Assembly (NCBI GenBank): GCA_903813345.2
Contig: CAIIXF020000002.1
Location: 18,362,813-18,426,812, forward strand
DNA: 64,000 nucleotides
From: Owenia fusiformis
Lineage: Eukaryota > Annelida > Polychaeta > Sabellida > Oweniidae
Direction: 5' to 3'
In this document: piece after piece, positions 1,601 through 63,475 of the stretch
How the letters are laid out: each line of letters starts with the position of its first letter
Position numbering within the stretch: position 1 is the first letter of the stretch
Translations under genes and position numbers: made by a program
The notes under the pieces: generated by a model
Told to the model about the DNA's origin: nothing
What the model saw: only the letters and a program-made list of their open reading frames with translations
Databases searched by the model: none

Positions 1601-1662
1601 AGAATTGTTATACACTGTACACTTAAATTGTAAAAAGTCATGAAATGTATTATAATTTAAAA

Positions 1663-1668
1663 AATAAA
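1663..1668 (+). promoter_or_regulatory. Polyadenylation signal of the hydrolase gene
   Basis: A canonical AATAAA lies 62 bases after the stop codon at 1598-1600, the expected place for a short 3' UTR. No other candidate is closer. Confidence 0.6.
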
Positions 1669-1699
1669 GTCAATTGAATATCATTCCATAAAAAAATAC

Positions 1700-2040
1700 T
1701 GTATTGGTCTCTAAAATTGTTTACTGATCACCCATTTTTAAAATCAGTGTTGCCTTTCTCAAACCAACCATAATAGATCACTGAAACCTTCCTAAAATCA
1801 CCCATTGCTTTCTGAGACCACCATACTTTTTTGAACCAACAATACCTTTCAAATACCATCCAAGGAGGGAAGCTGTTATTCAAACTGGATACTCCGTTGC
1901 CAAGAGTAGAACCTTGAAGAAATAATTTTACTAAATTGTTCAACTGCAGGCAACGGAGAATCAAGTTTGAATAATGGCTGCTAATCCTCCCTGAATATCA
2001 TCCATACCTTTCTCAAACCACCCCTATTTTTCTAAGACCA
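1700..2040. repeat. Degenerate lead-in repeats before the minisatellite
   Basis: The stretch contains loosely repeated pieces of the form accacc-ata-cctttctcaaacc about every 35-40 bases. It grades into the regular array that follows. No coding signal is visible. Confidence 0.4.
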
Positions 2041-4375: not shown

Positions 4376-5905
4376 CAAATCATATATAATATCAGAGATT
4401 CGATACAAGAATTGAGTGCATGTATAACATTTCTGTTTAATAAGATTTATATATAGAACTTTCAACCTGTATAGTTCCAACAAAAGAGAATTGATCTGTT
4501 ACACAAATACAAGGCAATATCAGTGTATATGTTAGCATTGCATGTTAACCTAAAATACTCTGTCTATGTATTATATGGTAGATTGTTTAATACTGCACAA
4601 TTACCCGTACAAATGTATGGGGTAGCAGTGGCACTTTAAACTTATTTTCCAATGAACATGTTGTGTTTTAGTCATTAAATGATCCGTAATCATATTGGAT
4701 AGTCAGATATGGGCGTGTGGCCACAGCTTATCTACTGAACGAAATGCGACTACCCAAGTGAATTTACAGGGTATTGAATTTTCCCTTGCATAATTTAAAT
4801 TGATTCATTAATTTATTGAGAAATGTGAACTAAGGATCAATGCAAATTATAACGTTGCAGACAAGTTGAAAAATGTTGTCGAGAAAATGCATATTTTCAA
4901 ATGGAACCCCTCTACTCCACTCGATTGTGACGCTTCCCCACTCATTTCTCACACAGAAGAGGTGAGTAGTGGGGGAAGTACAAAGGCTTGTCGTTAGATT
5001 CAAATAAATCTAAACAACTTAAAACCATACAGGCATCAAAGCAACCTACCCTAGAACTTCTTGATTTGCTTCTTGACCTCCTAGTAGACATAATGGTTCT
5101 GTTTTCTGCATAGATGTCTCTACCTTTCCACAGAATTGTTAACACCTGGTAAAAAGTTTAGTCCTACACTGTCATACATATAGCCTGAATTTACTGTTTC
5201 TTGACTCAATGAGGGTAAAGCCTTCACTTTTTCTCCCTTAGCCAAATAATGCCTACGAACTGTTGCTTATTGGCTAAATAAAGCTTAAAAGTGCTCCTTG
5301 TCCAAAATAAAGTCCAAAATAAAGCCAAAAATTGCTCCTCGGCCTAATGAAGCCTGATATATAACTTATTCTTCTGAGTGCAAAATAGCCAAGTGCGGGG
5401 CTTTAAACTGGGCCTGTTCTGCTAAATTAACTCCACCATCTCATTCAAAATAACTTGGAAAATTTTTACTATACTTTACGCTAACTGCTCCTAGCGTATT
5501 TAAATTCTAACGTACATTTTATTCATATCTGTTTATACAGTTAAAGGTCACAATAGCATATTGTCAATCTGCATAAGCCTATTTGAAGAACAGAAAAGCA
5601 ATCTTTAGATTTAAATCGATAATCTATAAGCTTTGACTAGTGGCTTACCTGGATCTATATACCTGCTGATTAATTCAAACTGTGCTGTCAATTATGCTGT
5701 TAAAAATACTCTGCATTGTTAACACTGAATAACAGGTGTAGTAGAATATCGTTGATGGATCGAATATCACAGTTAGAAAAAGGTCACTAGAAATGTAGCG
5801 TTCTTAACAACATCAAGTCTATTTGATTAATAGTGCTCATTTAAAGGGGGTTTCAATTTGAATAAGGTCTGTTTGGTTAATAGGAGACCGTTAACAGCTT
5901 GAATA
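4376..5905. other. Intergenic AT-rich stretch, no supported gene
   Basis: There is no long open frame and no recognisable repeat apart from a weak inverted pair around 4930-4980. On the minus strand, 5105-5050 could be a 56-nt exon (acceptor ..TATGCAG, donor G|GTAGGT) encoding an Arg/Ser-rich piece (STRRSRSKSRSSR). If real it might belong to CEP135 downstream of exon 4, but this is speculative. Confidence 0.35.
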
Positions 5906-15599: not shown

Positions 15600-15725
15600 A
15601 GGACGGTTGACTCCCAGAATGCAACATCCGTTACCGTATTTACTCATGACAGGTTTCAAAATGGCGGAACAGCATTTTGAAAGCTGGCACCTGTCATGTT
15701 GCATTATGGGAGCCAATCCTCCGTT
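15600..15725. repeat. Palindromic element with inward ATGGCGGA
   Basis: Inverted arms share ACTCCCAGAATGCAACAT / ATGTTGCATTATGGGAG and ATGACAGG-TTTCAAAATG. The short open frames crossing it on both strands are products of the palindrome. Confidence 0.55.
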
Positions 15726-21881: not shown

Positions 21882-23496
21882 TTTCTAGATATCAGCGTCC
21901 ATTTATTGTAACTCGCGTTTGCTAACATTTGCTCAGTTCTGAGATGAAGGCCACACGGGTAGTAAAAAGGCCAACGTTGGAACTATTTGTGACCTACATC
22001 CCTATTTTCGTAATTAAAATGAAAGTTGAACCCTTTCCCTTTATTTTGATACCAAACAATGTACTTAAAATTAGGTAAACTTTACTCCTCAAAAGTGATA
22101 TAAGATAAGATAATCAAAATATAGGGGATTGCAAAGAGCGAGGGAAAGTATCGCAACAGATTTTTGACAGTAAATAATTTTTTTCTAGTAGTTTCTGGCT
22201 GTACAAAAATGAATGCGTATGAAAGGCCAATATATAATCTTTAAGAAAAATTCAAAGAATGGTTTCAAGATCAATTGGATTATCTCATAATCCATGTTTA
22301 ATCCACCCATCAACAAGCTTTTTTTCAAAATACAATCGTCATTTTCACCATCGTCCCTCATTTTTTTTTACAATTTTCATGCAAAGTTACATTGTACTTG
22401 AACACATGTTTCATCACTTAAAATATATAAGGAACTCCTCGTGGATTAGGATTATGATAATCCAATATAAGGGGATCCAATGGGGCTATGCTTTTCGTAC
22501 AGCACACTCATATAAGATGTCATTAGTGTGCCATAAAGTTAGTTCAAAATGTTTTCATAAATGAATGGTTGGACTTGTTTGATCCCCTGCTGTTTGATCT
22601 CCTGTTTAATCAATGGAGCATAACCGCAGCATTTCCCAAAAAAATCTGAATACCTGTCAAGTTGACTGTTTAATGTTTGAGTGCAGTTAAACCTGTGTGT
22701 GTGTGTAAGTTGCTAAGAGATTCTAAATACCTCTCTTTATGATAATTTCTATGATGCCTTATTATAGCATTTACTTTGAACAGGTTTTCTGTATCTTGTT
22801 TATCAGTAATGATTCACGAGGTACAGTGCTATTAAAATCATAAATACAGTACAAGAATTTAGTACATCATACCTTTGCCAATAATTTTAGTAAGACAAAT
22901 ATTTTGATCCAGCTTCTGAAAAAACATTGAACATGTTTCTATATGATGATGTGTTATAACACACTTCCTTATTTGAGTTTATCTCCAGATTGATTATTCA
23001 AATAATGAAATGAAGGATGATATGCTAAGAATAATTTTTGCATATTCATCAATTCAAGAAATGTTATCCTAAGAAAATGTTATGAGTAACATACACTCTT
23101 ACATTAATGTTAACATTAGGGAGATTAAGCTTGCATATAAAATCGAAACGCCAACCTATGACCAATCGCCCATACAAATGCATCGCTAAATATTTTCCAT
23201 TCACATTTAGGTTGTGAAAAACATTGCGAGCTTAAAGTCCCTATTGAGAGTCTCTGAAAACCACAATCAATACCATTGAGTGTGTGGTGTATACTACCTT
23301 TATCATTATTTCTAAGATTTACAATACCATCTTTTTAGCAAAATGTCCGATTTTCTTCCATATTAATGTGAACAAATATAAACAAACATAGAATGATTCT
23401 ATTGGTTGACTCAACAATTTCAGTTATTAGGGAGGTTAAGATCGCACTATTTTGATGAACGTACACATGGAATGTGTAAACTTATGGTCCCCTATT

Positions 23497-24280
23497 CACG
23501 GTGTTATAGCATGACGGTTACGTCAAGGCGATTTGCAAAATTTTGCGGTAACGATAACAAAAAATGGCGGATGGGAAAGGCAGCATGTCCTCTTTCTCGC
23601 CTGTAGGCAATATTCACAGATAAGATTTCCTTTTAAACTAGTTCCATTCGGTGACGTATATATGGATGGTTATAAAGACTGGGTCAAATCTGCCAGGTGG
23701 TCTACAAGAAACAGAATATAATCTGTAAACCTACCGACTGAGATATCAAAGTTTATAAGTTTTGATCCATTCTCGTGTTGTCTCAGTACATGAGCCACTC
23801 AAAATATTAACTGTAAGTATAAGTAAACTGTGTATAACTACTGCAAATTCAAAATACATTATTATGGCTTGAGTAGAACATATTAGGTGGTTTCCAATGC
23901 TCAATTGGCTTTGTATGATCGTATGTAGGTTACATCTATATACCACAAGGTTTTTAGGCAATGTAGACCATGCCCTAACAACAAAAACAAAAATAAACAA
24001 ATTACTAAATTTTTGTGTCGTTTTGAATTTCAAACTCGACAGTTTTTCTCATCTTTCATCAATTTGCAAAGGCTACGTTCAAAATATACATTACTGAAAG
24101 TATCACAGAATGCGATTCTTACATAAATCGTTCATCCTTTCATTGATACACAGAAGTAGAAAATAATGCGCCAACCTTAGTTTTCTCTTCCATCGCGGCC
24201 ATTTTATTGGATAAATCAGTGAACGTAGCTGTCCAACCTCGTTTTCAGAGGTGGCGTAACCGTCATGCTATAACACTGTG
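23497..24280. mobile_element. Transib-like non-autonomous element, CACRGTG ends, 5-bp duplication
   Basis: The left end CACGGTGTTATAGCATGACG and the right complement CACAGTGTTATAGCATGACG share 26 bp with one difference. A perfect 5-bp duplication CTATT flanks it (23492-23496 and 24281-24285). CAC-initial ends with 5-bp duplications are typical of Transib/RAG-like elements. ATGGCGGATGG (23574) and, on the minus strand, ATGGCCGCGATGG (24202) point inward, 78-79 nt from each end. No transposase frame remains. Confidence 0.7.
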
Positions 24281-24959
24281 CTATTGACTATTTTCACATC
24301 ACTGGCCTCTTTTTGCCTGATTGATATAATGCCAATTGATGTAATGGTCCCCAGTTAAACCAGTTGAGAGATGGACAACATTACTGGGGGTCATAACAGT
24401 ACTCGTTCATGTTCAAGTTCTCACACAAGTGTTTTACACAGTCTGTAGCCAGCTTTTACCAAGGGCAAAGCTTTTGCCTAGGGATGAACCTTTTGACAGT
24501 TTTGGCTAAAAATTCATGCGAAGTGCTCAGATTGGTGAGAAACTGCATCATTTTGAAAGAATCTCTTGGGGGAGCAGCAGCTCCCTTTATCTCTCCCCCT
24601 CTACCTGCCTACGAGCCTGTGTACTTAACCTCTCTAATGTTCATGATGAATACTAAATGTAAAATTTTCACATTTTTCATATTTCTACTATTCATATTGA
24701 CCAATCCCCATTCATGTCATTTTAACAGGTCCTTAATCCCTTGTTTTCTAGTCGTATGTGCTTTTATTATTCAGTTTCACAATCTATTGTTTTGCCATGC
24801 CAGTTTTACATGTTTGCATGCTGAGTTTGTTTTATGTAATGTTTTTTGTTCCTTATATGGTTTACACATTCACTCAGTTGAGTTGGGGTGTTGCCCCATT
24901 ACTAGTTAATGTTGCCTAGAGTTTGTGACTGTACATACACAAAGTATTTCAAATATATA

Positions 24960-26023
24960 CCAGGTCGTTCAATAAGTTCACGGAAAAACGCTCTCATTTC
25001 AACGATTTTCAATATTTTCTCATGAAATTTTCACACAATGTATAGAAAATACTTTCTGATTGATCCTTAAAATATCAGCATCTCTTATTTGATTGGTCAA
25101 AAATAAGGGTTATTATGGTAACTTGACTTTTGGGTAGGTGGGGCACTTTTTACGTCACATTATTCATTAGAAAAACTACAGAAAAATAGGCAATTTATGA
25201 GTATATCACATCTCCGCCTTCTACTTGTACATGATATAACTTAATGTAATTGTTACAACTATTGTCCCCTAAGGTTTCAGAAGTATTCTCCCTCATGTTT
25301 GATGCACAGTCGCTTGCATTCAACCCATTGATGATACGGTGCTCTGAAGCCATTTGGAAAACTTGTTTGAATGGCAATCTTGACTGCAGTCGAAAGTAGT
25401 TTCATTGTTCCATGAAGTGCAACTAAACTCCTAGCTGATCCTTCATCCTGGTGAAAAAGCAAAATCAAGGATTGTCTCATCTGGAGAGTATGTAACTTGG
25501 GGCAGCTTTGCCATCTATTTTGCCAGTCATTTGTGATGGTTTCCTGCACAATATTAGCAGTGTGATCGGCTGCATTATCCTGATGGAAAAAAGTTTGGCT
25601 GAATGGTTAAGTTTTAATCAACTTACCATAGCATTACTCTTTGTTGATTTTCTGGTCCACTGGTACAGCATGCATTGACTAGCACGATTTCAGAAATTTT
25701 CGTGATAACAATGGACATCAATTTTCCCTCAGAACATTTGTAATTTAAAAAAGAAAAAAAGAACAAATAAAAATAGGGATCCTTCATTTGCACATATTGA
25801 TCGCTTTCTGTAATGGTAAATTGTGTGACGTAAAAAGTGCCCCGGCTACCCAAAAGTCAAGTTACCATAGTTACCCACATTTTTGACCAATCAAATAAGA
25901 GATGCTGATATTTGAAGAATCAATCCTAAAGTATCTTAAGCACAATGCGTGAAAATTTTATGGGAAAATATCAAGAATCTTTGAAATGAGAGCATTTTTC
26001 CGTGAACTTATTGAACGACCTGG
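24960..26023. mobile_element. Decayed mariner element with very long inverted repeats
   Basis: The ends CCAGGTCGTTCAATAAGTTC are flanked by TA on both sides. Inverted similarity continues for more than 200 bp inward to gggcactttttacgtcac at both ends. Length 1064 bp. A broken transposase C-terminus lies on the minus strand inside. Confidence 0.85.
25277..25560 (-). pseudogene. Mariner transposase C-terminal fragment
   Basis: The frame ends in FRAPYHQWVECKRLCIKHEG then EYF and a stop. This matches the mariner C-terminal pattern of a helix followed by W..C....G.Y. The upstream catalytic DDD region is deleted or scrambled, so it cannot be active. Confidence 0.65.
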
Positions 26024-27164
26024 TATTTTAGAAAACATTTTATATTTGATTCCCACCCAAGGGTCTTCCACTCACCCATTAACATAAACAAAACATGAAC
26101 TCTAATAAAAATGCCAACAAGACTGCAAGGGAAACTTAATCTATGAATTGGACTTTGCCATATCACATGTATTAGTCCCGTGACCAGGGAGGGGGAGGAG
26201 GGGGGTTGAGAGACGACCCTCTCCCCTAGGCACATTTACTGTCAACATCCTGCAATTTTTCACCACTTTAGTACTTTTCAAGTGATATTCGGATGATGCT
26301 TTCATTTAATTGCTTGCACTGATCACTCTACTATACCTTGCATTTGGTGTTCATGAGCAACTCATTTGGCTTATTAGTAATGATTATGTATTTGTTTTTA
26401 TTTGTCTGTTCCTTATGAATGGTTTATCGGTTGAAAATTAGATGCTAGTAAGGCACTTTCAAAAATATATTAAACAATTCAATTAGACAAACAAAGTATC
26501 TTATGCATTTCTAGGTGTTAGATATAGTAGTGTGTGATGGTTTCTCTTGAAAATTCATGCACATAAGGTGATCTAGTATTTCAACACAGGACCCTGAAAG
26601 CGCTATTTGAGCTTGAAGTAGAAGTATTCATAGTATTACTGTTTGTATCATTAATCTCTATGATTTTTCAATAGGCTAACTCAGTCAGTGAATGCAGGAT
26701 TAAAACACAACACACATGAGTAATTCACCCACCTATGCATGTTATTATTGAAAAACATTGCCATCTTTTACATCACTCCTAAATTATTTTTGTAAACATG
26801 CATTTTAAGAGGTTCATTTTTTCAAAAAAAACTCAAAAACAAACTTCATGGAGTTCCTTACATATTTTACTTGATGAAACATGTGTTCAAGTACAATGTA
26901 ACTTTGCATGAAAAATTGTAAAAAAAATGAGGGACGATGGTGAAAATGACGAATGTATTTTGAAAAAGCTTGTTGATGGGTGGATTAAACATGGATTATA
27001 AGACAATCCAATTGATCTGGAAACTATTCTTTGAACTTTTCTTGAAGATTATAGATTCACCTTTCCCAAGCATTTACTTTTTACAGCCAGAAACTACTCA
27101 CAAAAAAATTATCAACTGTCAAAATTATCAAAAGTCTGTTGCGATACTTTCCCTGCTCCTTTCG

Positions 27165-27295
27165 GAAATTCGCGGAGGTCCAAGCCACATTTTGCGGGAC
27201 TTCGCGGGACAATGCGGGACACGCGAATTAGCCTAATTTTGATCAAATTGGCGGGATAATCCCGCCATTCGCGGGACACTTGACAGCTCTGCAGA
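27165..27295 (-). repeat. GCGGGAC-family repeat, third copy
   Basis: Read on the minus strand it starts CTGCAGAGCTGTCAAGTGTC and continues through gcgggacttcgcgggac words like those at 16325-16690. Confidence 0.55.
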
Positions 27296-27463
27296 CTGGA
27301 TAAACATTCAATGCTTGATGTCAACCAAAATCCAGCGATTGCTTGTTTGAAAGAAATGCATGCATTCACTTCAAGAGACAAAGTGGGCGAGTTAATTATT
27401 TTGCAGGGGTGGTATGATACACACATATCAATTGTGTATAGTGAATTCCCAGTCAGTGATTGA

Positions 27464-28080
27464 TTTCAGTACAGTAAAACCGTCATAATGAACACCTCTT
27501 TAGTGAAGATCTGTGCCCAGTGAACACATGACTCTACTCTATTGAACATCTGTGTATAGTGAACACCGATTCTCAGCCAGCGATTTCAGTACAGTAAAAT
27601 ATCCTAAGGAACACCTCTTTAGCCGTGAAGATCTGAGGGAATTGTACCTACAGTAAAACCTGTCTAATGCGGGGGACCAGCTAAGAGCGTTCGCATTAGG
27701 AGTGTTCACATTTTGAGGTTTTGCATTTGCAATATTTGGGATTTTGAAGAAATAGGAAGTTCTCAAATATTTCTAAATCAGTAGTTGTCTTGACTACCTA
27801 GCTTTATGGCATAACAGTGACATGAAAATCCGATTCAAATGAATTTAGTCATCCTAGAAAGCCCCCCCCCATGAGTGAGATAATTGAAGTTATTTTCAAA
27901 TATTTGATCAATTTTGTATGGAACATGTGATACTTTATGAAAAGTGTTCAGATAAGTTAATTTTTCAAACATGACTGTCCACTGTTCAAATTGGGAGGTG
28001 TTCACATTTCCAGTCATTCCAGATAGTAATGCCCCAATCAGTTTTCGGAAAATGACAAAAATAAAGTTTCTCCGTTTCAC
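27464..28080. mobile_element. Pogo/Tigger-like terminal fragments
   Basis: TACAGTAAAACC-type ends occur at 27470, 27590 and 27650. The first two are followed by the same aacacctctttag..gaagatctg segment, a direct duplication. The block at 27980-28050 (aaattgggaggtgttcac .. gatagtaatgccccaatca) recurs inverted at 42990-43065. No transposase frame was seen. Confidence 0.5.
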
Positions 28081-29287
28081 TTCATACCTTGTTATTTTTT
28101 GAGGGTATATGTCTACAGCATAATACTAAAAAATTGGCTTTTAGACTCTCTTGGTTTCGTAGTAATTTTGATTTGAAATATGTGGTACACATCTTAAGTT
28201 TTTGTGCCATTTTAAATTACGTTATAGGTACCATCTTAATTGATTTGAATACTTGTTTTTCTACCTTAAAGTACAGACATTAGGGTACTGATACTTATCA
28301 GGAGGATTAATAATAGTTGGCTTTTGAACTTTTTTTGCTCAATTACAAATATTTTATATTTTTGTCCTTAAAATTGTAATTTCCATAATGTTTGTCAATC
28401 ATTTAATCATTAAGTGTGAATCTTTTGTGACCATTGCCTCAATTTAATACTTTTTAGCAGAGCAAATGAGTATATCTCTGAATTGTTAAACACTAATATT
28501 GGATACTCCCATGGTTATCTATTTGTAAAAAAAAACTCAAGCATTGAACATGCCTATATTGTAACGTAGATTAATTGATCGAAGCTAACATTTTCAATTC
28601 AATCAGTTGCACAATATTGTAGTTTCCGAAGAATTAAAGTGGTCCGTTTAATATACGTTTTACATAAGAGAAACTCATTTTATGAAAACACGTTATGTTC
28701 ATGTAAAATATAGCATTTGCGTACTATATTCAAACGAACGGTAACGTAGATTAACATCTTAGAGCATCAGTTTCATGTGTCATTAAATCTGATCAAGAAT
28801 ACATTACAATGAAAAACACAAATCATTACATATTGTGAATAATAATGGTGCTAAATGTACTTGGTATAAACCCCTTATCCTAGCACTGAATGAGCAAATT
28901 TTGGTAACGCTTGTTAAGAAACTGTAAAGTCGACGACATTAGATAACGAGAGCAAATATTGTTCAAAGTCTATGTAAAACTTAAACTTCTTAACTTTATC
29001 ACTTAATTCAACATCTCTAGAGACGTCGCTAAAACAACTGTCAACGTGAACTAGTAAATGTTTACAGTAAAACGTATTTTCAAATCATTATTATCTGTCC
29101 AAAACCACATATCAGACGTCATTGTCTCTTGATTCAATTTTTGAGGCAAATAGCTCATCATCAGTTCAGGTAATCTTGAACATTCTTGCATTCCCCCACT
29201 TGGGAATCAAATCCACTATTTGGCAAAGAACGTTTGCATGTTCTACCCAGAGTACATGTTCTGGCTACCCACTGAAAATACCCCCGT
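28081..29287. other. Stretch without a supported gene
   Basis: AT-rich. The word GTAACGTAGATTAA occurs at 28561 and 28741 and related words recur up to 31.8 kb. No coding or RNA signal was seen. Confidence 0.35.
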
Positions 29288-29554
29288 CTGTTAATCATAA
29301 ATGATGTTTCGTAGCACGCCATCCACATTAACTACTTTTCCAATGTACCAAGCACCATCATAGACTGCAGTAGTATAATTGTCGATTATGCACATAACAG
29401 CTGCTCTATTATCATAGGGTTCGTCTGCGTCAGTGCTCTTACTCTGGGGTTCATTTTTTGCACTCCGCGAGGCAAAGCAAGAAACAAACGTTTGAAAGGG
29501 GAGCTCTACCATAGGTGCGTGGTACCGCTTAAGGTAATGGTGTAACGAAAACAT
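29288..29554 (-). pseudogene. Possible exon or relic with a YDGAWYIGKVV motif
   Basis: A minus-strand frame of about 88 codons ends in TTAVYDGAWYIGKVVNVDG. This resembles the small beta-rich 'Y-D-x-x-W-Y-x-G-x-V' segment seen in uncharacterised, often multi-copy invertebrate proteins. The frame stops at 29294-29292 soon after the motif and the sequence further along is shifted in frame, so it is probably broken or spliced. CCAAT-like and TGACGTCA words occur upstream at 29925-30060. Confidence 0.3.
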
Positions 29555-29924
29555 TTTTGAAAAAATTGATACACCTGCACATGTTATTTTCTGTTGAAAT
29601 TAAAGATTCTCGCAATCTTTATCCAATCAGCGTTTGCGATGTGTACCGGCTCACGTATAAAAGGCGAATCCAACTCAAATCCATGCAGGGGTGTATGAGA
29701 TACTCGAATAGGAAAGAGCTCTTGAAATCTGAATTTATATGCACATGGTCAATGTTTACACATGTTTGGAGTTATTGAAGAAAATGTGATATGGGTGTGG
29801 TTCCGAATTTGAAGTTATTGCTGGAAAATATGTACCCTTTGCATTCGTTCGACTTCACTTCTTAAAAAGAGAGCTCCGTCTTTCAAACTAAAATAAACCT
29901 GTGAACTCACCGCGCCAATCAGTG

Positions 29925-30065
29925 CTCGTCGGCCAAATTTGACCGACGTTCTATATATGGTCATTCCTTCTGACGTCATCGTTAAGCCCGGAATTGATCA
30001 ATGACAATTTAGAATTTATTTTGGCTTGCTGATTGGTGGAAGAAAGGTCAGCGCGTAGGTCAGAA
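29925..30065. repeat. Inverted-repeat patch with CCAAT and CRE-like words
   Basis: cgcgccaatcag and ctgattggtgg..gcgcg are inverted. Between them lie gtcggccaaatttgaccgac (near-palindrome), a TATATA word and tgacgtca. It could be a promoter or a small foldback element; the sequence does not decide. Confidence 0.35.
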
Positions 30066-30689
30066 GTGATTTATTACCCGAACTGTCACCGGCACCCGTC
30101 GTGGGGGCGGGGCTACTAAACTGTAATATGGTTTCTACTAGGCAGAGTGTAGTTTAACTAGACTCTGCACGCAGGGTAGAAAATATGATTTTAATATGTG
30201 ACATTATATCTATAAATACAGCACTAAAAATAACAGTTCACATGAAGTACATGTATGATTGTGTCCAGATATGTTTGAAACCCTTACGGAAAATTTTGTC
30301 TGCATTTTGGCACAATTGCTCTTTCTTCCCGCATTCTAGTGCTTTTTGAATGAATATATTAATTAATGTATTTCTAACTAAAACATATCACATTTTTTTA
30401 TAAACCACAAGCATTTAGATCATAAAAAAGTATTCAATACTTGAGTAAGCACGATATGCAAGGGTTACTAAGTTGACACAGTAAATGACCACTGACATTG
30501 TATTAGTCCATGCACACAGCGTATTCTGCTAATACACATTTCGCCTTGAACACCCCTAACTTTCATAGTGAAGTGATCGTCTGACTAATTGGTTTATGTT
30601 TACGTTTTAATGTGTTTTGTGTTCCTTGTTACAGCAAGGGGGGCCAGTAAAGTAGACTAACATGTTTGCATGGCAAATTTTGATCGAAT

Positions 30690-30985
30690 ATGTGAGACAC
30701 TTTAAAGTATGATGGCATGTGTGCTTTTCCCTTGGTAAAAGGTCCGTGGTAACTCAAGTGTCGTACAGAAACTTTGAGAAAACATTGAAAAATTGAAAAG
30801 ACGACCATTTTGAATGTTTTTCATGAAATTACAGCATTTCCTGGAGTTAAATTGATCTCTTACCAGACTCAATAAAAGAAGACACTGTGACGATACTTTC
30901 CTGAAATTTCTACATGCCTTCATTTTTTATATTGTCAAAGAAAATATAATGAGCAGGTATTGCAATTTTTTCAAAAATGTTCTGT
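30690..30985. mobile_element. Foldback family A, copy 2
   Basis: It shares atggcatgtgt, gaaactttgagaaaac, ctcttaccaga, gatactttcctgaaa and catgccttcat with the arms at 13440-14305, in matching order. There is no Mutator-like insertion in this copy, so it shows the uninterrupted form. Confidence 0.65.
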
Positions 30986-32684
30986 CTGTTCCACCATTTC
31001 CTTAACACGTGCCCTTTCTTTCTATACTTTTCCCCATCTTTTCCATTTCTCTTTTCAATTCAATATAGGCTTTTTGAATCACTGCTCTTGATTTACCCAT
31101 TTTCGGAAAGATGTCCCCCTATTTGAAACTCCAAATCAAGTCAGAAAAGGATTAACGATCGATTTAAATTACGTTACCGAACATAACGCAATTTATCCAA
31201 CATTTAATATCGAATTTCACCAAATATATTTCAAATTGAAAGTTTTGTTCTTGCACCACAAATAACATGTTTCTAATGAATGATGTGCTTCGAATTTAGT
31301 ATCCAAAATTCCTTAAATGTTTTTTACTGAGATTGTGAATGGAGTTAGGTATTTACTTACATATTTTCAATTATTTTGATGGATTGTAGTCGATTGTCAG
31401 AGATAATACACAGCTTTGAGTCAACATGGCGCCATGGCGCACCAAAACTAACCATATGGCCCATTGTCATTCTGATTTATCAGAGTCCCTCTTTATCTAA
31501 CGTTTTTGAGAGAACTATTCCAAAAGGATAGTAAAGGCTGTGGATCCCACAATGGCCCATTGTCATTAAGATTGTAGTTATAAAACAAGTCAAATAGGAT
31601 TGTTTCGTAAAAAAGTCTCACGTAGTTTAAGGTAACGTTATTTAATATTTGTGACATTTTAATGCAAATAAATTATTATAATTCAGTACTAAACGACAGA
31701 GTAGGGTCTCATATTAAGTCATCCAAGGCTGTCGTACAATATATGTGGGAAACAGTGCCTTCGTTCTTTTATTTTGCTGGATATTTGGTAACGTAGTTTA
31801 AAGTCCTTATCCATCGTCATACGTTTCAAAAAATATTTTTTGACAAGTCACAAATGATATATCTTGGTAAATACATTGACATTCTATATATTTCATGAAT
31901 GTTTTATATGTAAACTAGTATTTGATGTTGGTTTAAAGGTAAACGTCACATCGGTACAATGTATAAGCTCCATATCACACTGGCATGTAGCGATTATAGC
32001 GGTCCTGTCTTGGCTTATTGAATTGTTACGAAGTTACGTATGCGGTGCGGAAGTTAGAGAGCAAATGACCATCATTTCAATGTAATAGTTTATGCAGGAA
32101 AATTGAGATTAGGCCATTGGAGTATTTGTTTCATGCATTTGTAAAACGTTACCCACTCATAGGTCATACTTATCGTTAAACCAATAACTCAAATATATGC
32201 CCTTGTACACCGATCACCTGTTGAAATTAATACAGGCCGATTTCAACAAGTGTAAACGGCGATATATTTAAAATCGTATTCAAGCATGACCACGTCCCAA
32301 CTTCTTTTGTTTTCTTTACAACTAAGCTATGACTGCAGTCTATTCAGTGTTGCGTATCGAACCTTGTTTATTATAAAAATAGTGCAACAACAAGCAGAAT
32401 TCACACATTTACCTTATACTTATTCTCAACTGAAGACATTGAATTTATCTCTTAGGTTTTACATTATAAATATCTTAACATGCAGAATACGAAAATAGAG
32501 GCTTAGGCCCAACTTTGTATGAATTTTATGAGAATAATCTGATTTTAGAGAAATGAAAAGAAAAATGTCCACACACTACACAAAATATTTATGGTTCCCC
32601 GGGAATACGTATGTGCTGCTTGTATATTAGAATCGTATTCCAGTTACAGAAAGAAGTACATATCATGCTAAACTATATACAACA
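30986..32684. other. Stretch without a supported gene
   Basis: AT-rich. It contains further GGTAACGTAGTTTAA-type words (31632, 31789 and, inverted, 31164) and an ATGGCGCCATGGCGC palindrome near 31427. No open frame is convincing. Confidence 0.35.
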
Positions 32685-32818
32685 GTTATGCACTTGGAGG
32701 TTTTGGATACAGGGAATATCCCGAGGGATACATAATATGTCTTCCCTTGGTCCCTCGGGAAGATATATTGTATATCCCTCGGGATATTCCCTGTATCCAA
32801 AACCTCCAATTGCATAAC
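32685..32818. repeat. Hairpin family P, copy 1
   Basis: Arms of about 62 bases (ttatgcacttggaggttttg.. gggaatatcccgaggga) are mirrored almost perfectly around a short spacer near 32750. Copies lie at 33237-33378 and 40395-40533. Confidence 0.85.
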
Positions 32819-33156
32819 CCCTATATATTGGCCAAGGGATAATCCCAATATCCTGACTATAGGATAATATGTTTATCCCATACCAATCTTGGTCATCTGG
32901 TTCACATTGTTAAATCGTGGAAATATTTTAGAATATTCATGTCCAGTTTTGTTTTCTTGGCTGTGGGCGGATTTTCATGTTCTCTCAAATAATCCCATAT
33001 TTATTTTCTCGAATTTTTTATTGATAAAGTGGATGCTCTTTCCCTTTTTTAACTATCAAACAGACCCTGATTGTCTGTGTTTTCTCCATTGCCGTTTACA
33101 GTCATTCCGCGAACGTTACAAATTATGAACAAATATGCAAGCGGCGATTATGACGT

Positions 33157-33185
33157 AGCGGGCAGATATACTACATCTGCCCGCT
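33157..33185. repeat. 11-bp stem palindrome AGCGGGCAGAT
   Basis: AGCGGGCAGAT and its exact complement are separated by 7 bases, just upstream of hairpin copy 2. GAGCGGGAC words recur at 33188, 33726 and 33763. Confidence 0.7.
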
Positions 33186-33236
33186 TGGAGCGGGACGTAA
33201 AGCTTTATCCCATGGTTGCAAGGAGGATATATAGGG

Positions 33237-33378
33237 GTTATGCACTGGGAGGTTTTGGATACAGGGAATATCCCGAAGGATATACAATATATCTTCCCGA
33301 GGGACCGAAGGGACCAAGGGAAGATATATTGTATATCCCAAGGGATATTTCCTGTATCCAAACCGACCGTGCATAACT
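33237..33378. repeat. Hairpin family P, copy 2
   Basis: The arms and central 'gagggaccgaagggacc' resemble copy 1. It is followed by an inverted pair attccatacctgatgaggttt (33384-33404) and its complement (33828-33848) that encloses a T-rich tract. Confidence 0.85.
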
Positions 33379-33439
33379 GTTGTATTCCATACCTGATGAG
33401 GTTTGAAATAATAAGATTGTATCCCGTATGCTCTGGTGC

Positions 33440-33730
33440 TTACTTGCAAAATATGTTATCATTTTCAAAAAAAATCAAATTTTTTTCCAATTTTATTTTC
33501 AATTTTTTCAAAAATGAAAAAAAAATTCCCAAACTTTTTTTCACATTTTTTCCAAAATTTTTTTTTTCAACTTTTTTTGATAATTTTTTTTTCAGATTTT
33601 TTTTTCAAAATTTCGACATATTTTCAACATTTTTTTACATAATTTTTTTCCACAATTTTTTCAAATTTTATTTTCAATTTTTTTTCCCGAATTTATTTTA
33701 AAATTTTTTTTTACAAATTTTTTTTGAGCG
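33440..33730. repeat. T-rich low-complexity tract
   Basis: Runs of 5-10 T separated by caaaat or aaattt. The open frames across it (Phe-rich) are artefacts of composition. Confidence 0.8.
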
Positions 33731-33849
33731 GGACATACGATTTATATGTCCTGGAGCTCCGTTGGAGCGGGACATACGAAAAATATTTGCCCGGATATGG
33801 AATATATTCCCGGTTGATATGTCCCTGAAACCTCATCAGGTATGGAATA

Positions 33850-34500
33850 CAGATCGAATATCACATGATGATATATTTGATATGTGGATCAAGATATCAT
33901 ATTTTAGCAAACAATTTACAAACCATCAAATATCACTTTTAAACTATCGAATATCACATCTTAAATAGAGGATATCCTATGATTTATGAGTGATATGATT
34001 TTTATCTACGAATGGATATGATATCTGCACGAGTGAGCGTAGCGAGAGATTAAAATCATATCACGAGTAAATCATAGGATGTTCTTTATATTCCATAGTT
34101 AAAGTCATCATCAGAATCTTCGGGAATTAAGTGATCTAAAACGAATTTTCCAAACGATACGGCGATATTGACACTTAGCCTCGTTTTGAGTCTGAAGTAG
34201 CAAAAATCCATAAACCATGGCATACGGCGCCGCATGTCATGGCTAAAACACCGTATGCTATGGTTAAGTGAAAATTTGCCAAAAATATCATATTTTACCA
34301 CTGATTTCAAAAATACCGTTTTTATTTTGACATGTTATCCTATGGATATCATGCTAACTATGGAATAATATAGGAATATCCTATGGCTCTGAAAAAATAT
34401 CACTTATATCCATGAGTGGATATTGATATCTTCGCGAGTGAGCGCAGCGAATGAGTGAAGATACTGATATCCATGAGTGGATATAAGTGATATTTTTGAA
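33850..34500. repeat. Foldback repeats with GAGTGAGCGNAGCGA loops
   Basis: Two large hairpins (33968-34083 and 34398-34496) have 35-45 bp arms closing on gcgagtgagcg-agcga loops. A related piece lies at 45178-45300. The 33850-33960 segment (cgaatatcac words) is matched inverted at 40255-40365, so inverted copies bracket the LINE stack. Confidence 0.65.
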
Positions 34501-34941
34501 AAACTATAAGGATTGTCCGTTTATCCCATTGGGAATTATTATCCAGCGAACATTGAATAGTCAGATAAATTGCAATGGAAATTCCATTTCGTCTGACATT
34601 TTGATTGCGATAATTCAACGAACGTCATATACGTGACGTAACAGAGTGGTTTGTATTTAATGCGAACGCCGTAAAAACAGGATCCCAAAAAATAAAAATA
34701 TATAATAAATATATAATTCAATTCAATTCAATAGACACCCTAGTGGGTATATGTTGCGGTCTAACAGAAATCATTAAAATGACATCTAGACTACATATAA
34801 AAGAAAACACTTATATTATGTTACATGTAGGTATATAAAAATGGTATTAACAATTAATCTAAGGATGTACAATGTAAAAATGTTACAAAAATCAGGTATC
34901 AGTATAAAATCAACAGTATAGTATGATATTGGTATTATACA

Positions 34942-35071
34942 TTATCGATAGATGAGTAGTTTTTTATATGAAGATTTGAAAATATTTAGAGTGGAGCATT
35001 TTTTAATATCATGTGGTAGAGCATTCCAAAGATTAGGACCTAGATAGCGAAGGGAAAGTTTAGAGCATTTA
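34942..35071 (-). pseudogene. LINE ORF2 C-terminal end, separated from its body
   Basis: LSLRYLGPNLWNALPHDIKK is the usual end of CR1/L2-type ORF2 proteins. It stands alone here, 3.65 kb from the rest. Removing the intervening element and one TAAAT copy puts it back in frame with 38716-39036. Confidence 0.85.
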
Positions 35072-35158
35072 CACGGTGAGCAACCATACCGCACCGGGGA
35101 TCGACCCCGGTGTGTTACACTTTTCCCCGGAGCGTTGGTAACGCACCGTCCTTTTAAA

Positions 35159-35847
35159 ATGGCCGACGGAAATGTGTTTCCTCCGGAGGAAACAAATAAT
35201 AGTGGGAACCAGAGGTGAGTGAATATCTTTTTACACATTCCATTCTAAACACGATATATCAGGGTACCTTATTAAAATTCCACAAAGCTGTAACATATCG
35301 GTATTATGTGAACGAAATGTAAATGCACTTTGAAAAATTCGAAGGAAAGTTAAAGGCTCGTCTAAAATGTTGTATTTCTTGTCAAAGAAATGATTGGAAC
35401 AACCACAGATTTTTTTACTCAATATAGATATAGTTATAAACATACTATTCTTCAATATCTTACAATTCGAACATTGTATAAGCGTCATTTATTTATATGA
35501 AATGTACCTTCCAAAATTGATGGGGTAACGCACCGACACAAATCTACGACAATTTAGAAACGCACCGGTTTTATTTTTACAGGAAACGACGGAGAAGTTC
35601 TGGACTGCAAACTGGGCATTCAAGATACAAGAAACGCCTGAAAATTGCACCTACCGTCACTACAAGCGACGCTGGTTGTACAAAAGCCACAACTAACGAT
35701 AAATCACTTAAGACACCAATCAATGCTAATGCAAAGGCTATCAGAAGTGCTAGGAAAATGCACCAAAGAAAAGAAAAAAGCCAAAAATTAGAAAAACATT
35801 GTTTGAACAATCACACATACACGTCGCACGAAACAGGGGACAATTAG
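35159..35847 (+). CDS. Left inward gene of the Transib-like element (basic N-terminal protein)
   Basis: Exon 1 is 35159-35214 (MADGNVFPPEETNNSGNQ) with donor AG|GTGAGT. Exon 2 is 35583-35847 after acceptor TTTTTACAG and ends at TAG. Together they give 106 residues. The second exon begins KRRRSSGLQTGHSRYKKRLK, a basic stretch of the kind found at the start of transposon proteins, then becomes Lys/Thr-rich. The ATG is 88 nt inside the left terminus. Either a short accessory protein or the surviving beginning of a longer gene continued by the exon near 36712. Function unknown. Confidence 0.5.
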
Positions 35848-36711
35848 AGTAACATTATGGCGTCAAAATAAAAAAACAATACAATGGGCAGCATAGGGCG
35901 CAATCAGCATTATAACGTCAGAAACGACAAGCGTTACATTTTGTCAAGTTTAGTCAACCTAAAAATAAGATGCTTTATTCTTATCCAATCCTGGTGAAAT
36001 TCACAGAGCAAGAAGATCTCGAGGACAATATTTCTAAAATGTTTTTGATTTTTGAAAAACGGTCAGGAAATCCACTCGGGGCGTTAGTAAAAATTGATAT
36101 GTATGGGATTTGTGGTAAAAAATCGATGTGTTACATTTTCAAGTCTCTAAAAGCAACTCTTATTCTCTTATTATTTGAAAAATAAAGAAATCGGTTATTG
36201 TTTTGTAAATTTCGCCATGACAATATTGTGCAGTTAAATTTTTTTTGAAATCAGACCTAAATTAGAAGGTTAAATAAAGGTAAACTTATTGCTTGTCTCC
36301 TTCGCCTTCAAAACCTTACACAATTTTGAAAATCTTAAAAGCGTTCATATAAGACGATTTGAACTGTAGCCGCTAGGCAATTGTGACGTCATAAAAGCAC
36401 ATGTTTCAATGAATAAAATGTGAAATTTTAGTGAAATTCTGATCAGTATTTCAAAAGTTATTCCGATTTCAACGAACCGTGTAAGCGTGAAATGTTACGC
36501 CTTACAGCGTATCTAACGATGTCGGAATACATTTAACTTAAAAAATATGGTAGATCCCATCATACTTTTCAAGGAAAAATAGTTTCAGTGAAATGCGAAT
36601 AAAAAATACTTCAAAATCATATATAATACACATAGTTAGCTTTTTAAATAAGGCAGATATTAACGCTTAGAGCTGAGATTAGCCCGTATTTCCCGAATTG
36701 TCCCCAGGTCC

Positions 36712-36902
36712 GTGCACGTCATAACACTGATGCTACCAAATGTCATATTGTGTCTCAGAAGACACAGTTTTTGCACCGAATTCATTATGCTACTAAGACT
36801 CCTCGCGAAAGACAAATTCCCAATGAATAACATATCGTGGCTTCTTTTCCTGGAGGTTGTGAGGTGGTATTCCCTTAGTTCCACCTCAAACATGACGTAC
36901 AG
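36712..36902 (+). pseudogene. Exon fragment with conserved FPxxNI..LLFLEVVRW block
   Basis: The frame encodes LAKDKFPMNNISWLLFLEVV then RWYSLSSTSNMTY and reaches a donor (TACAG|GTATGG). From memory this block resembles one in uncharacterised multi-copy invertebrate proteins, some of which also have a YqaJ-type exonuclease domain; this is unverified. The expected next exon was not seen. It lies on the same strand as the left inward gene and could be its internal exon. Confidence 0.45.
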
Positions 36903-37472
36903 GTATGGTTGTTAGCTTTAGAAGCAAACCCTCACTCTGGAAGTACATTTCACATAACAAGGTATTTCATAATGACCGTCCCCTGTCAGTCACCAATCCT
37001 AGATGGCGCACCTCCATGTGTTATAATATCATAGGAAAGCTCAATCAATTCATGACTTATTAAAACAACTTTGATTAAGCTCTGCAGCTTTTACGCTCTT
37101 TTTTAAGCTCTTAATGATACGAATAATAATGTTATTATTTGTCCCTCTCTTTAAACCCAATGTACAAATAGAAGCCATAAATCCAGCAAATTAGGATGAT
37201 AGTGACGACAAAACATAAATCCACAAATTATGGTCCCAACGATCACTCGTTCCAATATTTAGCCCATAAGTGCATTATTAAAAAAGATGTATGATGATGT
37301 GTAGATTAAGAGAATCTAAAGGCCCATGTGATTTAGGATTGGTTTTGGATGGGAGAGGGTAATTATGAAACACCCTATACAATACACAAATGCATAAAAA
37401 ATCAGAGTACGAAATGTGATAGTTTGCAAAATACGGTAATACATACTACAGGCGATAAAGATATGACACTTT

Positions 37473-37997
37473 CACTGGTCAGAATCAAGATGCGGTAACG
37501 ATCGTTACCTTCTTATCTAAGATGGCGGACGAAAAATGTCGATTTCGATATTTTTTGTTTTCATCAAATTTAAACTACGTATAATTGACGCAATGCTTTG
37601 ATATTTGAACTTGATAAGCCTTATATATCATGAAAACTTTGGAGTATGACCATTTATTCTTAAATCATACACGGGCGCCATAATTCAATTATATGTTACA
37701 CCGCTTAAGGGAAGGTAACTGAGAGTTCGATTTTGCAAAATTCACTTCCATTTACCTTCCCTTAAGCGGTGTAACATACAGTTGAATTATGGCGTCCACG
37801 TATGATTTAAGAATAAATGGTCATACTCCTAAGTTTCCATGATATCTTAGATTTATCAAGTTCAAATATCAAAGCAATACGTCAACTATAAAGTAGTTTA
37901 ATTCGATGAAAACAAAATATATCGAAATCGACATTTACCATCCGCCATCTTAGATGAGAAGGTAACGGCCGTTACCGCATCTTGATACTGACCAGTG
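37473..37997. mobile_element. Palindromic Transib-like element nested in the previous one
   Basis: The ends CACTGGTCAG-ATCAAGATGC are inverted and the two arms (about 245 bp each) match along their length around a 33-base spacer at 37719-37751. A perfect 5-bp duplication ACTTT flanks it (37468-37472 and 37998-38002). ATGGCGGA points inward 50 nt from both ends, preceded by GGTAACG. It lies within the right inward gene. Confidence 0.8.
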
Positions 37998-38644
37998 ACT
38001 TTGATAACATTTCGTGTGTGTCCGTTCTTATACAGCCGGTACCCTCAACCGTGAATTTTACTGGGGTCATAGGTGTCATTATGCTCAATTGAGGCGGTGG
38101 TGGCGTCGTATTCGAAGTGTTTCCACCTACCAGTACATCATCCAGGGGGGGATCTAGAGGTACGATACCGAACATCTGGAAATATTATTGTTCTTATGTT
38201 ATCAGTATGACCGATAATATAGGGTAATATTAACAAATGAATAAAGCACCGGTGCGTTTCCAAATATTGGCCTAATATGACCGGTGCGTTACAACTAGAT
38301 TTAGTGATATCTCATAAAACTGACCACCATTTAACTCCTAAACTGACACAATTTTGCATGCAACCATAAGGATCATGTTGATAAGATATATTCTCGCACA
38401 ATCTAGGAATACTCTGTATATTTCATAAAAAGAATAAAAAACATCAAAATATTTTAATGTTGCTTGTGCTTTTACATCTTGTTTGCATTATATAGGCTAG
38501 TTATCACTGATCTAATCGATCTGGATCATTCCTTAATATATTGTACTTTGAATGGTACATAGGAGTTCTTCGTACCTAATCACGAAACATCGTAAATCAA
38601 AAATTTCTACTCACGTCCATTATGCATTTATCATTGTCCGCCAT
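37972..38644 (-). CDS. Right inward gene of the Transib-like element
   Basis: Exon 1 (38644-38615) encodes MADNDKCIMD and ends at donor GAC|GTGAGT. Exon 2 begins after TTTCCAG at 38175 and encodes MFGIVPLDPPLDDVLVGG, then a Thr/Pro-rich stretch. The frame runs into the palindromic insertion and stops at 37972, so the last residues come from the insertion. The ATG is 80 nt inside the right terminus. It converges on the left gene. No domain was recognised. Confidence 0.45.
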
Positions 38645-38728
38645 TTTTCTTCACTCCGGAGCGTTACAATTTAAGTGTAACGCACCGGGGTCGATCCCCG
38701 GTGCGGTATGGTTGCTCACCGTGATTTA

Positions 38729-40165
38729 GGGATATGAAAATAATGCAATTGTCTTGTGTAATGATGATGAATATTAAACAAGTCTTGAAATAGATTTTTT
38801 GGAAGACTGGGGTGCTTATTAAAGATTTTGTACATGAACTGACCAGTACAATATCTGTTGACATAAAAAATATTTAATATGTTAAGATCTTCAAATAAGG
38901 GAGCGGAGTGAGAAAGTCTATCCTTATTTAAAGCTAGCCTTAAGAATTGTTTCTGCAGTTTATGTAGACGATCATAAAATGATTTAAATGTGTTACCCCA
39001 GATTATGTTGCAATAATTTAATTGAGAGTGTATCAATTGTTTTGAAACTGTCTATTTGAAGTAGATGTTTAATGTGATAAAGAGAACCAATGACGCGAGA
39101 AATCTTTGTTTCAATAGATTTTATGTGCTCTTTAAATTTCAAGTTTTTATCAATAATAATTCCAAGAAAGTCAATTTTATCCCGGAAATTTATGTTCTCA
39201 TTGCGTATTTTGAGATTCAGATTTGTTTGATTTTTTTGGGGTCCAAATAGAATAGCATTGGTTTTGCCAATATTAAGTGAAAGTTTGTTTGCTTTTATCC
39301 AGTCATCTATTGAATTCAAGTTTGCATTAGTTCTAGTCATAAGTTCATTTAAATCATAATCACTATCAAGAAGATTGGTGTCATCAGCAAACATAATAGA
39401 TTTTAGATTAGGGTCAACAAAAGGCAGATCATTTATGTAAAGAATAAATAATAGTGGTCCAAGTACCGAGCCCTGCGGAACACCACAATTTAGAGATGAT
39501 TGTTTAGATTCATAATTGTTAATGGTGACATATTGTTTGCGGTCTTTTAAATAACTTTCAAACCAGGACTTAGCTATTCCTCTGATGCCATAATATTCAA
39601 GTTTTTGTATCAAAACGTCATGATTAATAGTGTCAAAGGCCTTGGAAAAATCTAATGTTATGCAAATGCTCGTTTTCCCCAAATCAGTTGATTTTCGAAT
39701 TTGTTCAATGAAATATAAAATGGCCATGTAGGTAGAGTTGAATTTCTGAAATCCAAATTGATAAGTAAAAATAATTTCAAAACGTTCTAAAAAACCAGTG
39801 AGTCTGGCGTGCATGAGCTTTTCTAACAATTTAGAAAATACCGATAAAACTGAAATTGGTCTATAGTTCGAAGGATTTATAGTGACTCCTTTTTTAAATA
39901 CAGGTGTTACTTTGGCCAATTTGAGGGCGTCTGGGAAAATACCAGATTTAAAAGATAAGTTAAATATATACAAGAGCGGATCAATTAAAAACTGTCTTAC
40001 AGACTTAATAAGTGATGGTAGAATCCCATCAGGTCCAGGCGAGGAAGATTTTAGAAGACATATTTCTAATTCAAGCTCAGTTTTTGAGGTCTTTTTGAGA
40101 TAAATAGATGATTGAACTTTTTGAGCTCTTGCTGGGTATTCATAAACAATCGTTTTGCTGAATTA
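38729..40165 (-). pseudogene. LINE reverse transcriptase, frameshifted
   Basis: The reverse-transcriptase motifs occur in order: SSSPGPDGI, AKVTPVFKKG, NYRPISVL, YQFGFQ, ITLDFSKAFDTINHDVL, CGVPQGSVLGPLLFILYIND and the catalytic FADDTNLL. Then come KANKLSLNIGKT and DFLGIIID. The long frame (39973-38993) ends near 39000 and a second frame (39036-38716) continues with HSQLNYCNIIWGN, so at least one frameshift exists. The C-terminal part, LRYLGPNLWNALP, is displaced to 35071-34942, ending at the stop there. It encodes the enzyme for target-primed reverse transcription but is inactive. Confidence 0.9.
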
Positions 40166-63290: not shown

Positions 63291-63475
63291 CTTAGACACA
63301 ATACATATCATGTGTTTGATCGGGTTTAACCCCGAGTTCAAATAATTATAATGTAAACCTGTATTGAGATGACCCACGTCTCTGATTGGTCAAAATGAAC
63401 AAACAAAAATGGCGGATTTAAAATTTTCTAATAATGCTTTAAGTAATATTATGTTAATTTCTGGCGTGTAAACAA
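63291..63475 (+). promoter_or_regulatory. Promoter-like region with NRF1-type palindrome and ATGGCGG start
   Basis: AGCGCATGCGCT (63291-63302) is a 12-bp palindrome containing the NRF1 core GCGCATGCGC. A CCAAT-type word (attggt) lies at 63384. An ATG in strong context (aaaATGGCGG, 63409) opens a 20-codon frame, MADLKFSNNALSNIMLISGV. A GTAAT donor could end it after 11 codons. If real, the gene runs off the right edge. Its similarity to the inward ATGGCGGA starts of transposons in this window is a caution. Confidence 0.25.

Follow-up and report, generated by a model that had tools for sequence, protein, structure and literature searches.

Non-autonomous transposons of Owenia fusiformis whose CAC-beginning ends may hold the starts of two convergent genes

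A 64-kb stretch of the genome of Owenia fusiformis (hereafter, the window) contains three elements, E1, E2 and E3, that begin with CAC at both ends, lie between perfect 5-bp duplications, and carry near each end an inward-reading ATGGC word resembling a YY1 site. In this report, we find that E1 and E2 are probably internally deleted, non-autonomous copies of related cut-and-paste transposons that once had two convergent genes, each with its start codon in one end of the element. E3 probably belongs to a separate family that shares with them the outer CACNG and the YY1 word. The analysis covers the window and places fetched from elsewhere in the same genome (L001-L096; assembly of 498 Mb in 525 contigs).

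Ends, start-codon words and target-site duplications

The coordinates of the three elements given in a first-pass annotation of the window, their CAC ends and their perfect duplications (CTATT, ATTTA and ACTTT for E1, E2 and E3) are all confirmed. So are the distances reported from terminus to inward ATG at the right end of E1 (79 nt) and in E2 (88 and 80 nt) and E3 (50 and 50 nt); at the left end of E1, however, the ATG lies at nt 68, not 78. The design that the elements have in common is narrower than had been proposed. Alignment of the six ends leaves C1, A2, C3 and G5 invariant, with an AA.ATGGC.G block further in and a few scattered columns, such that only the initial CAC, a G as fifth base and AARATGGC are shared by all. 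A TAACG word between terminus and ATG, also proposed as common, is evident in E2 and E3 (GTAACG/CGTTAC counts of 3 and 4 in the terminal 120+120 nt, with E2 taken without its nested parts; shuffle means 0.09-0.12), but the single occurrence in E1 is unremarkable. Similarly, the RAG heptamer CACAGTG is present at the right end of E1 in the window, but only as a variant: 37 of the 40 ends of the 20 best other copies read CACGGTG, the remaining three being one CACAGTG, one CACTGTG and one altered end.

The inward word AA[AG]ATGGC[CGT]G is found once at each of the six ends, which account for six of its eight occurrences on both strands of the window; outside the elements, it lies 40-100 nt downstream at 102 of 118,028 positions. 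These counts carry the caveats that the word was spotted before testing and that the two ends of the near-palindromic E3 are not independent. By family majority the word reads AARATGGCGGA at five ends, with AAAATGGCCG at the right end of E1 and at the left end of E2 in the window. It resembles the YY1 motif and, over most of its length, the TISU initiator. The full TISU consensus is SAASATGGCGGC; here the last base is mostly A, not C, and the words are sited at transposon ends. YY1 binds 5'-CGCCATNTT-3' (PMC7481187). In mammals, TISU unites a YY1 site with a start codon for short 5' untranslated regions, the AAS-AUGG and the YY1 site overlapping, and is a known promoter element (PMC2518114); the AAG/AAA-ATGGCGG core common to TISU and the present words would here likewise be a YY1 site plus a start codon near the transcription start. 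Judged from this word, a promoter function of the E1, E2 and E3 ends is plausible.

A genome search with the pattern TCCGCCATYTT N46-76 BMMCNGTG returned 76 matches, as opposed to one for the reversed control. Sorted by reading, 35 are E2-type (9 ends being matched twice), 15 E1-type and 9 E3-type; 7 belong to one other repeat and 3 to another, and 7 are single or chance matches. The matches thus indicate which repeats carry the word and are no census of ends. Some candidate ends among them were rejected. The seven matches of the other repeat (CACTGGTAGATACCG...) are not termini, because L080 and L081 share sequence beyond the supposed end; this repeat contains a tandem pair of CCGGAAGT...AAGATGGCGG units, which we take to be ETS plus YY1-like sites. 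The match in L085 lies within a 426-aa open frame, and in L087 the inverted repeat does not begin at the CAC.

The duplications of E1 and E2 are uniform in length. Exact 5-bp duplications flank all six E1 copies with both ends recognised (window, L082, L083, L091, L092 and L096) and 13 of 15 E2 copies, or 12 of 14 distinct sites, given that L005 and L006 share flanks. The E2 set comprises the window copy, L001, L002/3, L004-L011, L013 and L014, with L011 included after a 2-nt shift of its altered right end; L012 and the divergent L015 (about 75% identity) have no duplication. Among E3 and its relatives (n = 17), exact duplications are of 5 bp in four and of 6 bp in six, two more have one mismatch in 6 bp, four have one mismatch in 5 bp, and one has none (this count omits L042, L045, L048, L055 and L066 and the shorter pieces L041, L044, L046 and L052). 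Pairing of flanks across copies, as a control, yielded 5-bp matches in 0 of 30 pairings for E1, 0 of 208 for E2 and 1 of 272 for E3, and no 6-bp matches. Lengths other than 5 bp, which the first-pass annotation held to be incompatible with its proposal, are therefore a property of E3 and its relatives, but not of E1 or E2. The duplications at the 18 distinct E1 and E2 sites are AT-rich (12 of 90 bases, or 13%, are G or C); the local GC content of the window is 30-42% in 2-kb steps.

The three duplications in the window are unequal witnesses, as E1 lies within a larger repeat and E3 within E2. For E1, 40 of 828 first-look candidates were scored and the top 20 besides the window copy were fetched, a choice that favours carried copies. 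All 20 share the window flanks (40 bp on the left, 35-40 bp on the right, at 97-100% identity), and 17 match its exact 5-bp duplication. Thus, E1 in these copies represents one insertion within a larger repeat, and the amplifying unit is larger than E1; the limits of that repeat were not found. Free-standing relatives are L082, L083, L091, L092 and L096. The E1 family is large, since a query with its left gene gave at least 150 genome matches (best 150 of 775 candidates scored).

The case of E2 is more direct. In L080, an uninterrupted relative of its insertion site can be aligned across both flanks once these are joined, at 197 of 212 positions and with a single ATTTA, and the duplication is therefore real. 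The host sequence is a reverse transcriptase open reading frame that E2 splits (window 38719-40162, minus strand, and 34942-35066) and that is uninterrupted in the L080 relative; Pfam RVT_1 matches window 38996-40162 (E 1.2e-33), and the type is non-long-terminal-repeat by reading. In genome searches, the end parts of E2 are mostly 97-100% alike among copies, with one copy at 89-93%, which suggests recent movement. As for E3, its left junction with E2 recurs in 10 of 10, and its right junction in 9 of 10, of the copies L004-L011, L013 and L014; both are absent from L001, L002, L012 and L015. Because the junctions recur in the other E2 copies that keep the region, E3 must have entered an E2 progenitor once.

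Two putative convergent genes

The first-pass annotation posited that the autonomous parent had a pair of convergent genes, each with its start codon beside a cleavage site. For E1 and E2, the exons, donors, phases, acceptors and a zinc-finger frame support this at the level of sequence. In 10 of 13 E2 copies, the left ATG opens a 56-nt exon ending in GAG|GTGAGT (phase 2), and in 10 of 13 the right ATG opens a 30-nt exon ending in GAC|GTGAGT (phase 0); this survey left out L006, a duplicate of L005, and the divergent L015. In three of six E1 copies (L082, L083 and L096), the left exon is again 56 nt long and ends in CAG|GTAAGC (phase 2), and the right exon is 27 nt long and ends in AAG|GTAGGT (phase 0). 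The intron phases hence agree across E1 and E2, being 2 for the left gene and 0 for the right. Donors were chosen among GT words by the better donor and a matching acceptor. The left second exons, each with an acceptor in phase, read RTRKRRSCLSLYRAWKK... (RTRKRRS...) in E1 and RKRRRSSGLQTGHSRYKKRLK... (RKRRRSS...) in E2, and Pfam scans of the left gene detected no domain in either.

The right gene probably encodes a C2H2 zinc-finger protein. In the E1 copy L096, right exon 2 (FQCDVCLKS...) stays open across five C2H2 fingers as far as a stop codon; two of the zinc ligands are altered. All ligands are kept in the zinc-finger frame of L093, where exon 1 falls outside the fetched piece, and the same 137-residue frame is kept in L094, where it adjoins another C2H2 gene. 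Pfam zf-C2H2 matches this frame, as in L093, in 5 stretches (E 9e-20), and a query with it gave 6 matches of E1 type by identity, at 77-100% (best 150 of 2684 candidates scored). In E2, right exon 2 begins MFGIVPLDPP... behind an acceptor in phase, and L001 and L002 have a C2H2 array in the right gene. In L093-L096, a 66-aa frame lying between the genes was considered as the last exon of the left gene; we do not claim it, because a second frame is open there and the sequence of L094 is broken by a gap of some 14 nt. Open frames were listed and read by eye for L001, L002/3, the E2 majority sequence, L066-L074, L080-L087, L088-L092 and L093-L096, and Pfam scans covered part of them.

From these features we infer that the exons are spliced as described and that E1 and E2 have a common origin. 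Each end would then be a compact cassette, read inward as the cleavage site, the CAC inverted repeat, a spacer holding GTAACG words (evident in E2) and AAAATGGCSG, a YY1-type word whose ATG would be the first codon. The left gene would have a 56-nt first exon (phase 2) and encode a basic protein; the copies read lack the rest of it, which is presumably the transposase. The right gene would have a first exon of 27-30 nt (phase 0) and encode the C2H2 protein. A transposase acting in trans would recognise the ends and cut with a 5-bp stagger. Host YY1 would bind the ATGGC word and drive both genes from the ends, and it might help the transposase to find them, as it does in ProtoRAG. We hold this full cassette model to be probable, with some reserve.

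A number of observations weigh against it. Both exon 1 donors are missing from the window E1, L091 and L092, and alternative GT words exist at 39 nt in E1 and at 43 nt in the window E2. The ratio of non-synonymous to synonymous rates (dN/dS) in the zinc-finger frame is 0.48 for L093-L094 and 0.52 for L094-L096, both distant pairs, and is thus not clearly below the 0.53-0.87 of wrong frames; it is 1.38 for the close pair L093-L096, and the E2 zinc fingers of L001 and L002 differ by 4 non-synonymous and 0 synonymous changes. Selection on this frame is not proved. The fingers of E1 and E2 are 32% identical, and many other C2H2 frames of the genome match those of E1 at 40-50% (among the best 150 of 2684), so that finger similarity is no proof of common origin. 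Of the words in the window, those at 15658 and 63406 do not lie at such ends. The 76 pattern matches are mostly copies of a few families, many hit an inner or flanking CAC word, and only 13 of the 35 E2-type matches reach termini. Finally, the only transposase recognised in the copies read is that of a nested mariner, and the identification of the left gene as the transposase gene is therefore a guess.

Some of these points would suit another explanation, in which ATGGC is only a YY1 promoter site, gained independently by families resembling miniature inverted-repeat transposable elements, with no gene start, the frames and GT words being due to chance. The word is indeed a known promoter element that also occurs outside the elements, no second exon was found for E3, and dN/dS does not prove coding. 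We nonetheless regard this explanation as unlikely: two families whose sequences are unlike agree in exon lengths, donors, phases and acceptors, and in L096 the right exon joins in phase to the open five-finger frame.

Relation to known transposon systems

The parent was sought in genome searches with E2 end parts, left-gene proteins, end patterns, the design pattern and the zinc-finger protein, and by these means no copy with its transposase was recognised. The source of E1 and E2 movement may be lost, unassembled, or outside the scored candidates.

Could the missing transposase be of an ordinary kind? E1-E3 might be hAT elements of the hAT5/hAT6 type with unusual CAC ends and, in E1 and E2, an extra zinc-finger gene. 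We consider this improbable. The hAT end signature is YARNG, which CACNG breaks at base 3, C in all three elements; E1 and E2 have 5-bp duplications in 19 of 19 exact cases; and a second zinc-finger gene is, to our knowledge, no usual part of a hAT element. Pfam scans of selected stretches showed no hAT domain, although no genome search aimed at hAT was made. What does speak for a hAT origin is that hAT5 and hAT6, which form one lineage with other animal hAT families, are described with duplications of 5 and 6 bp (PMC12730594), and that E3 and its relatives make both, with E1 and E2 making 5-bp ones alone.

The first-pass annotation had placed the elements in a Transib/ProtoRAG-like family, and the resemblance in layout is real. 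Transib is a one-gene element, and E1 and E2 share its CAC start and 5-bp duplications. The likeness to ProtoRAG and to RAG-like (RAGL) elements comprises CAC ends with a CACRGTG-like heptamer (single E1-E3 copies vary), 5-bp duplications in E1 and E2 (not the rule in E3), the tail-to-tail genes predicted for E1 and E2 from exons and phases, a YY1-type word in both ends (in ProtoRAG, a YY1 motif of opposite orientation and other spacing), and non-autonomous relatives (PMC7481187, PMC8289069, PMC7204232). In ProtoRAG each end carries GCCATCTTG, to which YY1 binds, repressing transcription and improving end recognition; the authors of that work call the motif lancelet-specific (PMC7481187).

The assignment is not supported, however. 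The published protostome RAGL end consensus is CACTWMCAAACKTYKBB, with AAA at positions 8-10, where E1 has TTA, E2 AGC and E3 CAG. The duplications of ProtoRAG, Transib and RAG favour GC (PMC8289069), in contrast to the AT-rich ones of E1 and E2. The right gene of E1 and E2 is of C2H2 type rather than a RAG2-like kelch gene, although no kelch search of the genome was made. In ProtoRAG, GCCATCTTG (TR5) reads inward 27 or 31 nt after the heptamer (PMC8289069); here, it is AARATGGC that reads inward, inverted relative to GCCATCTTG, further in, and apparently used as a start codon. The E1-E3 word gives an inward ATG because the strand complementary to that of ProtoRAG reads inward.

A genome search with the RAG1 model PF12940 gave no match over the cut-off of 25 bits, the three weak ones scoring 14.8-14.9 bits, in an assembly that may be incomplete. 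The Transib transposase, probed only via this model (of uncertain sensitivity to Transib), likewise gave none over the cut-off. All three weak matches lie in copies of another transposon (L075, L076 and L077, with L078 and L079), which was rejected as the parent, as it has other ends (CATATCGAGATTTT) and a chromodomain and is distinct from E1-E3. It is 5.4 kb long, with 25-bp ends CATATCGAGATTTT... and no clear duplication, and two of its copies are nearly whole, L077 being cut. One of its frames has a chromodomain (PF00385, E 4e-6); there is also a 726-aa open reading frame whose C-terminal part resembles RAG1 (PF12940, E 0.0022, below the cut-off; best solved RAG1 chain, E 0.0008).

On these grounds, it is very unlikely that E1-E3 belong to the RAG-like or Transib lineage, have lost RAG1L and are moved by a RAG1L or Transib protein. 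Their layout is similar to that of the ancestor of the RAG system, but on balance the comparisons above do not place them within it. We assign no superfamily: the lack of a RAG1 match over the cut-off, the end sequences, the base composition of the duplications and the partner gene all speak against RAGL, and hAT5/hAT6 accords with the E3 duplications. Our inference of cut-and-paste elements with promoters in their ends does not depend on a family name.

There is a modest chance that E1 and E2 constitute a new lineage; we found no description of this exact layout in the literature, which is no proof of absence. We raise only tentatively, as something of a long shot, the fuller proposal of an undescribed two-gene lineage in which the end word would be YY1 dock, promoter and start codon at once, and the C2H2 protein would partner the transposase as RAG2L does in ProtoRAG. 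If this were true, YY1-docked ends, taken with ProtoRAG and the unrelated-looking E3, would have arisen several times, and YY1 would be a recurrent host cofactor of animal DNA transposition, not a lancelet peculiarity. A family with this outward layout, but with another partner gene and no RAG1 found to date, would mean that layout and YY1 dependence were reached more than once, and it would allow the part played by YY1 at transposon ends to be tested beyond ProtoRAG. Should the transposase prove to be ordinary (e.g. hAT), the finding shrinks to an unusual arrangement of promoter and start codon.

Feature coordinates and other observations

Table 1. Positions, within the 64-kb window, of E1, E2 and E3 and their parts; gene parts are predicted from sequence.
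Feature	Position	Strand	Remark
E1 left 5-bp duplication CTATT	23492..23496	.	
E1, non-autonomous element, ends CACGGTG/CACAGTG, inside a larger high-copy repeat	23497..24280	.	
E1 29-bp inverted ends	23497-23525 / 24252-24280		
E1 left-gene exon 1 remnant (MADGKGSMSSFSP...)	23564..23619	+	donor lost: AT replaces GT
E1 right-gene exon 1 remnant (MAAMEEKTK), 27 nt	24176..24202	-	donor word GTTGGC
E1 right 5-bp duplication CTATT	24281..24285	.	
E2 left 5-bp duplication ATTTA	35067..35071	.	single copy in L080 empty site
E2, non-autonomous element with two nested repeats	35072..38723	.	
E2 51-bp near-identical inverted ends	35072-35122 / 38673-38723		
E2 left-gene exon 1, MADGNVFPPEETNNSGNQ + AG, phase 2, donor GTGAGT	35159..35214	+	ATG within AAAATGGCCG word
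E2 left-gene exon 2 (KRRRSSGLQTGHSRYKKRLKIAPTV...)	35583..35817	+	interrupted by nested repeat
Nested 907-bp very high-copy repeat in E2	35818..36724	.	not in other E2 copies, e.g. L004, L009
E3 left 5-bp duplication ACTTT	37468..37472	.	
E3, 525-bp near-palindromic element, ends CACTGGT	37473..37997	.	nested in E2
E3 left YY1/TISU-like word AAGATGGCGGACGA	37519..37532	+	ATG at 37522
E3 right YY1/TISU-like word AAGATGGCGGATGG	37938..37951	-	ATG at 37948
E3 right 5-bp duplication ACTTT	37998..38002	.	
E2 right-gene exon 2 remnant (MFGIVPLDPPLDDVLVGG...), acceptor TTTCCAG	38032..38175	-	zinc-finger part deleted here
E2 right-gene exon 1, MADNDKCIMD, 30 nt, phase 0, donor GTGAGT	38615..38644	-	ATG within AAAATGGCGGA word
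E2 right 5-bp duplication ATTTA	38724..38728	.	

Several copies of the elements contain other sequences. The ends of the 907-bp repeat in E2 lie near CAGGGGACAATT and CTGGGGACAATT, and ATGGCGTC is found some 40 nt inward from one of them; 37 of the 40 genome matches listed for E2 cover this repeat only. The 5.8-kb E2 copy L001 has mariner-like transposase frames, named by eye, nested at about 1693-3655; the 10.2-kb copy L002/3 includes a 7.7-kb stretch with no match in the other E2 copies shown. In L090, a PHD-finger frame (PF00628, E 2e-5) is present as two tandem copies at positions 1577-3078, seemingly within an element that has inserted into an E1-type copy.

Elsewhere in the window, the word at 15658 lies in a palindrome-like repeat (15600-15720; CTCCCAGAATGCAACAT / ATGTTGCATTATGGGAG) in which CGTTACC and AAAATGGCGGA occur. 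The word at 63406 lies in a region (63380-63420) where a CCAAT-box-like ATTGG precedes AAAATGGCGGA and which looks like a promoter or gene start. Several reading frames of a tandem repeat at 2488-4453 are open, with translations of the type EYKPFSTKHNHIGIQ. Finally, positions 2-1597 contain open frames with a VVFIHGGGW motif, which resemble an alpha/beta hydrolase gene.

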